Shown here: positions 12,997 through 17,758 of the stretch, piece by piece
How the letters are laid out: each line of letters begins with the position of its first letter
How positions within the stretch are numbered: the first letter of the stretch is position 1
IMG/VR virus record: IMGVR_UViG_3300031841_004169
Location: 1-40,930 of that record
Length of the DNA: 40,930 nt
Source: a virus
Direction: 5' to 3' (one strand)
Translations under genes and position numbers: made by a program
Notes under the pieces: generated by a model
Told to the model about the DNA's origin: nothing
What the model saw: only the letters and a program-made list of their open reading frames with translations
Databases searched by the model: none

Positions 12997-13030
12997 TTGA
13001 CATTAACCAAATTTTAAGATAGTATAAATA
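12997..13030 (+). promoter_or_regulatory. Dual promoter: sigma-70-like overlapping T4-type late box
   Basis: TTGACA (12997-13002) is followed after exactly 17 bases by TAGTAT (13020-13025), which runs into TATAAATA (13023-13030), the T4 late-promoter box. The same arrangement, preceded by CCC, occurs at 16409-16442 upstream of psbA. It would give host-polymerase transcription early and gp55/gp33-type transcription late (inference). Confidence 0.65.
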
Positions 13031-13033
13031 CTC

Positions 13034-13186
13034 AACGATCCTATTAAGGATTGTTACAATTGGCACATGTGCCAGTTCGCCCAGAGGTTGCCTCAATTAC
13101 TCGCGAATCTGTGGTATACTAAATCTGCGATCGGGAGTCGAACCGATCCTTCATCTGCGGGTAATCATTCCGCAAGTAATCAAAGG
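13034..13186 (+). promoter_or_regulatory. Structured 5' leader of the first secreted protein
   Basis: Three successive elements lie in the leader. A 9-bp stem AACGATCCT/AGGATTGTT sits at 13034-13055. A perfect palindrome TGGCACATGTGCCA is at 13061-13074. Downstream of an extended -10 at 13112-13120, GATCGG/CCGATC (13129-13134/13143-13148) is followed by TTCATC, the stem TGCGG/CCGCA (13156-13160/13170-13174) and AGTAATC. The last part resembles the TTCATC...CGCAAGTAA pattern of the glutamine-type element at 26032. AAAGG (13182-13186) is the likely ribosome site for the ATG at 13195. Confidence 0.5.
13112..13120 (+). promoter_or_regulatory. Extended -10 promoter (TGGTATACT)
   Basis: TGG directly before TATACT makes an extended -10 element, with no well-spaced -35. 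Transcription would begin near 13127 and exclude the upstream hairpins, giving a shorter leader. It is a second, probably host-type promoter for the gene at 13195. Confidence 0.5.
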
Positions 13187-16408: not shown

Positions 16409-16442
16409 TTGACAGGGCCCTGTGGCTCTGATACTATAAATA
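16409..16442 (+). promoter_or_regulatory. Dual psbA promoter: sigma-70-like overlapping T4-type late box
   Basis: TTGACA (16409-16414), 17 bases, then TACTAT (16432-16437) overlapping TATAAATA (16435-16442). It matches the design at 12997-13030 base for base in the key positions. This would let both the host polymerase and the phage-modified late polymerase express psbA. Confidence 0.7.
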
Positions 16443-16454
16443 CATCAACAGGTT

Positions 16455-16498
16455 ACGGAATGTAACGGACCATTAAGGATCTGTAACATTCCGTTTTT
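16455..16498 (+). terminator. Terminator-like hairpin inside the psbA leader (possible attenuator)
   Basis: A perfect 9-bp stem ACGGAATGT/ACATTCCGT (16455-16463/16486-16494), extended by AC/GT (16465-16466/16483-16484) past an A-A mismatch, is followed by TTTTT. It lies about 10 bases after the expected psbA start of transcription and 130 bases before the psbA ATG. It would yield a short RNA or act as a regulated attenuator. Confidence 0.6.
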
Positions 16499-16626
16499 GT
16501 TGTCTTCTCTTCAAACCGAGACCTCTAGGGAAGTAAAACACGTCTCTCATACCCACACTGGAGGGTGGTGTGGGAATATTACTATTGGTTCGTCCCCCCG
16601 AACTCTTACCTAACCCTTTTACGAAA
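16499..16626 (+). promoter_or_regulatory. Structured psbA 5' leader (candidate PhotoRC-type RNA)
   Basis: Beyond the attenuator-like hairpin come GAGAC/GTCTC (16518-16522/16542-16546), the strong hairpin CCCACAC/GTGTGGG (16552-16558/16568-16574) and GTTCG/CGAAC shortly before the start. No clear ribosome site precedes the ATG at 16627. Conserved RNA motifs (PhotoRC) are known upstream of psbA in cyanophages; a covariance-model search is needed to decide whether this is one. Confidence 0.5.
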
Positions 16627-17712
16627 ATGGCTAACTCTACTCTTACACAAGGTTACAATCAACAATCCACTTGGGAACAATTCTGCGAGTGGGTAACGTC
16701 TACAAACAATCGTCTTTACGTCGGTTGGTTCGGTGTGCTGATGATCCCAACTCTGTTGGCAGCAACCGTCTGCTTTATTACTGCGTTCGTTGCTGCTCCC
16801 CCTGTGGACATCGACGGTATCCGTGAACCAGTCGCTGGTTCTCTGATGTATGGAAACAACATCATCTCTGGTGCAGTTGTTCCTTCTTCCAACGCAATTG
16901 GTCTTCACTTCTACCCCATTTGGGAAGCTGCATCTCTTGATGAATGGCTTTACAATGGTGGTCCTTACCAACTGGTCGTATTTCACTTCCTGATCGGCAT
17001 CTTCTGCTACATGGGTCGTGAGTGGGAACTCTCCTATCGTCTGGGTATGCGTCCCTGGATCTGCGTTGCATACTCTGCACCTGTTGCTGCTGCATCTGCA
17101 GTCTTCCTGGTTTATCCTTTCGGTCAAGGTTCGTTCTCTGACGGTATGCCCCTCGGCATCTCTGGTACTTTCAACTTCATGCTTGTCTTCCAGGCAGAGC
17201 ACAACATCCTGATGCACCCCTTCCACATGCTTGGTGTGGCTGGTGTCTTCGGTGGTTCCCTGTTCAGTGCAATGCACGGTTCTCTGGTTACTTCTTCGCT
17301 GGTTCGTGAAACCACCGAGAACGAGTCCCAGAACTATGGTTACAAGTTCGGTCAAGAAGAAGAGACCTACAACATCGTGGCTGCTCATGGTTACTTCGGT
17401 CGTCTGATCTTCCAGTACGCATCGTTCAACAACTCCCGTTCGCTTCACTTCTTCCTGGCAGCATGGCCTGTTGTCGGTATCTGGTTTACTGCACTTGGTG
17501 TCTCCACCATGGCATTCAATCTCAACGGATTTAACTTCAACCAGTCCATCATGGATGGTCAGGGTAAAGTCCTCAACACTTGGGCTGACGTTCTGAACCG
17601 CGCCAACCTGGGGATGGAGGTAATGCACGAGAGAAACGCACACAACTTCCCTCTGGATCTTGCTGCTGCTGAGTCTACTCCTGTTGCACTCACCGCACCT
17701 ACCGTTGGTTGA
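16627..17712 (+). CDS. psbA: Photosystem II reaction-centre protein D1
   Basis: ATG 16627 gives a 361-residue D1 starting [20 protein letters not shown]; an in-frame ATG at 16570 would add an unlikely leader. The membrane helices, the ICVAYSAP and [15 protein letters not shown] chlorophyll/iron ligand regions and the C-terminal [19 protein letters not shown] cleavage tail are all intact. At the site equivalent to residue 130 it has Glu ([10 protein letters not shown]), as in high-light D1 forms. Phage D1 replaces damaged host D1 so that photosynthesis continues during infection. No intron or frameshift is seen. Confidence 0.99.
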
Positions 17713-17731
17713 TAGATCATCTATAATGTGG

Positions 17732-17758
17732 AGGAGGTCGTAAAGACCTCCTTTTTTT
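17732..17758 (+). terminator. Rho-independent terminator after psbA
   Basis: GGAGGTC/GACCTCC (17733-17739/17745-17751), loop GTAAA, followed by seven T. Ends the psbA transcript. Confidence 0.9.

Follow-up and report, generated by a model that had tools for sequence, protein, structure and literature searches.

What is the purpose of the hairpin that stands at the very start of the psbA leader in this phage? The gene, which encodes the photosystem II protein D1, is among the most widespread photosynthesis genes of ocean viruses. The initial annotation had described the leader as a 9-bp stem followed by TTTTT, at least two further hairpins and no visible ribosome site, and had proposed attenuation or a short RNA that responds to light, redox or polymerase modification. 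The window analyzed here is the whole of the IMG/VR virus record IMGVR_UViG_3300031841_004169 (40,930 bases). It comes from an ocean virus, a T4-like cyanophage near S-CAM9 and S-PRM1, and shares 95-96% identity with these two Synechococcus phages in the psbA leader. The genes in the region are two Phage_OMP beta-barrel genes and those for a PstS-like protein, plastocyanin, psbA and psbD; psbA and the promoters and RNA elements of the two leaders described below lie on the plus strand. psbA occupies 16627-17712, and no Shine-Dalgarno sequence precedes its ATG at 16627, in agreement with the initial annotation; a longer reading frame from GTG at 16570 was set aside because the ATG is the start in relatives. 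A strong intrinsic terminator lies at 17730-17754, between psbA and the genes toward psbD, despite the proximity of those genes. Rfam matches to the wcaG RNA and the glutamine-II riboswitch were also seen near the psbA regions of Syn9 (locus L331, 685-779) and KBS-P-1A (locus L335, 1825-1879).

The psbA promoter (16409-16442) is a strong host-type (sigma70) promoter that comprises TTGACA (16409-16414), a 17-nt spacer and TACTAT (16432-16437); a phage late box, TATAAATA (16435-16442), overlaps it. The pairing of sigma70 and late motifs has already been reported for cyanomyoviral psbA (PMC5931967), and the same dual layout was present at 114 of the 151 psbA loci examined. Promoter spacing predicts a transcription start zone at 16443-16448 (sigma70 start at about 16443-16445, late start at about 16448), so that the psbA transcript would begin within a few nucleotides of the stem; the initial annotation's placement of the stem right after the start site agrees with this spacing, the start position itself being a promoter prediction. 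The hairpin is not a part of the promoter, since P-SSM4 and P-SSM7 carry it downstream of promoters that are of the TATAAT type and lack a late box, and psbD leaders, which are short, have a Shine-Dalgarno sequence and share the dual promoter type of psbA, show no such hairpin. In the podoviruses S-RIP1 and KBS-P-1A, psbA lies directly behind a Phage_OMP-like gene, and no promoter, PhotoRC-II or hairpin was found there.

The 5'-terminal hairpin spans 16446-16502. Its main stem of 9 bp pairs ACGGAATGT (16455-16463) with ACATTCCGT (16486-16494) and encloses an inner stem (16465-16471 with 16477-16484) that ends in the loop ATTAA (16472-16476); TTTTT follows at 16494-16498. Both the letters and the fold bear out the stem and T-run of the initial annotation: the 5' 54-nt segment folds with -20.3 kcal/mol (z -5.7), and none of 200 shuffles was equally stable. 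When the full leader is folded, the 5' end CAACAGG (16446-16452) forms an outer stem with 16496-16502, past the T-run, so most of this terminator-like run can lie inside a longer stem; it is not conserved among relatives.

The hairpin itself is conserved. From 151 psbA genes in viral contigs and named phages, 114 had a TTGAC...TAAATA promoter within 330 nt, and these yielded 94 distinct leaders, 81 of them non-redundant. A computable hairpin near the start was found in all 81, with very variable strength (that of Syn9 is weak). Folding in 42-nt segments gave a mean z of -2.67 at the base immediately following the late box, with 80% of the 81 leaders below -1.5, as against -0.20 at -34, +0.12 at -20 and -0.08 at +20; later folding peaks fall on PhotoRC-II and on a third hairpin. 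The excess peaks at the promoter-predicted start, the position expected of a 5'-terminal stem-loop of the ompA type. Unrelated arm families occupy this one site (GTTAAGGAA..TTCTTAAC, TGTTACG..CGTAACA and GTGAGG..CCTCAC), and nearly all relatives are predicted to retain a hairpin at the tip of the message though its letters change. When the two largest hairpin families were aligned with MAFFT, RNAalifold returned no structure, as helix registers shift; an alignment-free arm-swap test was used instead. With phylogeny ignored throughout, leaders paired better with their own halves than with swapped ones (-10.4 versus -7.9 kcal/mol; Z -8.8; 0 of 20,000 permutations), as they did within the largest family at the same cut (Z -3.6; 1 of 20,000) and within the second (Z between -1.8 and -3.4 according to the cut), and no pairing gain was seen with a downstream control segment. 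Together with the G-U preference described below, this is the retention of structure over sequence that characterizes stem-loops of the ompA type. The initial annotation had staked its reading on conservation of the stems, and the 5' hairpin both is conserved and co-varies.

Words shared with a second leader had also been pointed out, and ATTAAGGAT is indeed followed by TGTTACA (from 13043) and by CTGTAACA (from 16472), the letters belonging to the arms and loops of two separate hairpins. The S-CAM9 counterpart of the ATTAAGGAT-TGTTACA word reads GTTAAGGAT, and the arms differ in most relatives, so the words form no conserved motif and it is the position of the hairpin that is conserved. Relatives do not retain ATTAAGGAT, and on this ground its reading as a conserved word bound by a protein was rejected.

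The second leader follows another dual promoter (TTGACA ... TATAAATA, 12997-13030) before an outer-membrane-protein gene and opens with its own 5'-terminal hairpin, AACGATCCT-ATTA-AGGATTGTT (13034-13055; z -4.5). Across 41 distinct Phage_OMP leaders the mean fold z was -2.3 at 0 and -2.8 at +3, against about -0.4 to -0.5 upstream, and the arms at this equivalent start position are unrelated to those of psbA. When late-box-like sites were scanned through the whole S-CAM9 genome, only the psbA and Phage_OMP leaders had a strong start hairpin together with TTGAC and TATAAATA. Alignment and covariation further delineated a structured element at 13129-13174, in which a GATCGG/CCGATC stem with GTCGA in its loop is followed by a TGCGG...CCGCA hairpin. 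At least 117 distinct copies exist, essentially all before the Phage_OMP gene family, and the element, aligned as 33 non-redundant sequences (alignment A1), co-varies (score 0.399; 500 shuffles gave 0.166 ± 0.021 and none reached it). In its TGYGGGTA..CA.TCCRCA hairpin the Y/R pair switches together, with 90 CG and 27 TA among 117 copies. The element had no Rfam match and is a candidate new structured leader RNA of the Phage_OMP gene; ARAGORN reported no gene at 13120-13180, and a tRNA-like reading of the antisense strand there was rejected. Judged by its predicted folds, the leader at 13034 is a parallel to that of psbA, with its own 5' hairpin and structured leader before a cyanophage outer-membrane-protein gene.

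Host genes were represented by 33 distinct cyanobacterial psbA leaders (loci L459-L538), mostly non-marine, with the start set by a loose promoter pattern. Here too folding was in excess where the promoter predicts the start (mean z -2.93), and the arms co-vary (Z -6.3); in Synechococcus WH7803 PhotoRC-I lies near the predicted psbA start. Because its start is anchored on that loose pattern, the host result is suggestive; it hints at a start-hairpin position common to host and phage psbA, with differing sequences.

Our preferred reading, to which we give about an even chance, is that the psbA mRNA carries at 16446-16502 a 5'-terminal stem-loop, distinct from PhotoRC-II, which shields this long-leader message from 5'-end-dependent decay. 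The dual promoter would produce a psbA mRNA with a long (~180 nt) leader lacking a Shine-Dalgarno sequence, and the hairpin would lock the first few nucleotides of that mRNA in a stem. The locked 5' end would be a poor substrate for 5'-sensing by RNase E, for 5'-to-3' RNase J and for pyrophosphohydrolase, and the psbA message would remain abundant during the destruction of host mRNA. PhotoRC-II would be a second module downstream, probably tuning translation or processing. This reading draws on established work showing that 5'-terminal stem-loops, such as those of ompA and papA, stabilize mRNA (cited in PMC3997798), on the presence of both RNase E and RNase J in cyanobacteria (PMC10989914) and on the reports that the T7-like phage P-SSP7 raises host RNase E and shields its own RNA by antisense transcripts (PMC9692554). 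Cyanobacteria lack close homologues of RppH (PMC10989914), which leaves the exact 5'-end pathway tentative. We extend the proposal only tentatively, and with less than even confidence, to a start-anchored, sequence-free 5' hairpin as a general protective cap, borne by cyanophage messages with long leaders (those of psbA and of the Phage_OMP gene) and also by cyanobacterial psbA.

Using cmscan, PhotoRC-II (RF01717) was matched at 16492-16587 over its full model (1-96) with 68.5 bits, where the gathering score is 39; a score above that threshold, upstream of psbA in a cyanophage, makes it a member of the family. The covariance model of PhotoRC-I (RF01716) had no match in the window. The Rfam comparison that the initial annotation had proposed has thus come out for PhotoRC-II, and the regulatory leader RNA it had suspected is supported by this match and by the conserved, co-varying 5' hairpin. 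Its further hairpins correspond to P1 (16504-16510/16527-16533) and P2 (16552-16558/16568-16574) of PhotoRC-II and to a third hairpin, GTTCG/CGAAC, seen in letters and fold at 16588-16603 before the psbA start. Within PhotoRC-II, GAGAC in the P1 loop (16518-16522) can also pair with GTCTC (16542-16546), a pseudoknot helix (16518-16546) that is left unpaired in the Rfam model; by search it was complementary in 71 of 81 leaders, in three co-varying versions. These are GAGAC/GTCTC, AAGAC/GTCTT and AGGAC/GTCCT, and GAGAT/ATCTC, GGGAC/GTCCC and GAGGC/GCCTC were also seen by eye. PhotoRC-II has been listed among families missing covarying pairs, in a passage that does not specify which pairs (PMC7657543).

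The PhotoRC-II model begins at 16492, in the last bases of the 3' arm of the hairpin, which leaves the hairpin mostly outside the family. Directly behind its dual promoter, the psbA leader of S-PM2 carries GTAAACAAATGTTAAGGAAT-CAGAAC-ATTTCTTAACATTTGTCTAC, a 16-bp stem with z -6.7, and has no PhotoRC-II match. Since S-PM2 has the hairpin without PhotoRC-II, the two are separate modules, and 16446-16502 does not form part of the PhotoRC-II model. That case weighs against a composite PhotoRC-II regulator, with the hairpin as its outer domain, that would control psbA translation in response to a ligand, to light or redox state, or to a ribosomal factor. Such a regulator would suit the adjacency of the two elements, their overlap in the last bases and their co-occurrence in nearly all leaders, as well as the co-varying pseudoknot and the missing Shine-Dalgarno sequence of psbA; the Phage_OMP 5' hairpins, however, precede another structured leader, and no conserved tertiary contact was found between hairpin and PhotoRC-II. 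We regard it as unlikely.

The T-run bears on attenuation, as the initial annotation had it: the hairpin and TTTTT would end part of the transcripts near 16498, giving an RNA of ~55 nt, and a signal or a modified polymerase would allow read-through. The window does have the elements of an intrinsic terminator, a G+C-containing 9-bp stem followed by a U-tract, as do its closest relatives. Among 87 leaders, 14 have at least five T in the 8 nt past the main helix, against 2.8 expected, and P-SSM4, with T6 after its hairpin, is one of them. The U-tract is nevertheless not conserved with the stem: most relatives have the hairpin without a T-run, S-PM2 has none despite its 16-bp stem, the U's are able to pair with the 5' purines, and no competing antiterminator fold was seen. 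The T enrichment is real, but the T-run is a minority feature and is explained in part by this pairing. Attenuation may operate in some lineages, that of the window included, and would not be the conserved function; as the explanation of the hairpin in general we consider it quite unlikely. A protective role is itself weakened by the same enrichment, which an attenuator predicts for some lineages, and by its reliance on a predicted start. The light response that had been suggested gains indirect support from S-PM2d, in which psbA is the only gene relatively up in high light (PMC5931967) and whose leader has the hairpin without PhotoRC-II.

The hairpin could also act as nascent RNA in the manner of the HK022 putRNA, its first hairpins binding the elongation complex and suppressing downstream pausing or termination. 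Its position, among the first bases transcribed from a strong phage promoter, would fit, as would a strong terminator at 17730-17754 between psbA and psbD. putRNA, however, is a defined RNA that contacts polymerase (PMC9378689), and the psbA arm and loop letters change freely, which makes this very unlikely. The choice between RNA and DNA was addressed with helices defined symmetrically on both strands, where G-U pairs outnumbered A-C mismatches 37:12 (composition expectation 1.19:1; p = 0.002). When G-U pairs were first counted, on minimum-energy folds of the two strands, no asymmetry had appeared (99 versus 103), so the excess is moderate evidence that points to a sense RNA over a DNA operator. 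An inverted repeat serving as the DNA operator of a dimeric regulator that responds to light or redox (with RpaB-like half sites such as GTTACA) would agree with the relatives' inverted repeats at +3 to +50 and with the recurrence of GTTACA-like words, but is highly improbable given the wide variation in half-site letters, arm lengths and loop lengths, the G-U excess and the different arms in the late-box-less P-SSM4 and P-SSM7 and in the unrelated Phage_OMP leaders.

Returning to the protective stem-loop, its separability from PhotoRC-II and its retention in S-PM2 offer one precise element to mutate for psbA expression. If the hairpin protects the mRNA, this would explain how a phage message persists amid host RNA degradation, beside the antisense protection described for P-SSP7 (PMC9692554). 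Were the cap general, selected phage mRNAs would outlive host mRNAs in a nuclease-driven takeover, and D1 output in high light would be set in this way.

Several known systems resemble the psbA hairpin in part. Puxty et al. (2018) described a 36-bp inverted repeat in the psbA 5'-UTR of S-PM2d and proposed a role in mRNA stability (PMC5931967). Like the window's element it is a hairpin in the psbA 5' UTR, and the S-PM2 sequence has its 16-bp stem directly after the dual promoter; unlike the present analysis, the portion of that report dealing with the repeat concerns one phage only and does not state its conservation, co-variation, start anchoring, relation to PhotoRC-II or occurrence at other genes. 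PhotoRC-II, known from the region before psbA in cyanophages (Weinberg et al. 2010, PMC2864571), occupies the same leader, but the first positions of its model fall on the final bases of the hairpin, and the model leaves GAGAC/GTCTC unpaired. PhotoRC-I and the host psbA leaders share start-anchored, co-varying folding, whereas their sequences are unrelated to the phage hairpins and the window is without a PhotoRC-I match. The HK022 putRNA is likewise a phage RNA structure directly after a promoter; it binds RNA polymerase, while the psbA hairpin tolerates wholesale sequence change (PMC9378689). The ompA/papA stem-loops similarly lie a few nucleotides from the 5' end (here predicted) of an abundant mRNA, but the 5'-end decay enzymes of the window's host differ, with no close RppH homologue and RNase J present (PMC10989914), and a stability role here would be by analogy. 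The 5' stabilizing hairpin as a kind and its S-PM2d instance were thus known already, and credit for the stability proposal belongs to Puxty et al.; what is new is its generality, its covariation, its start anchoring, its independence of PhotoRC-II and the parallels offered by another phage gene and by hosts.
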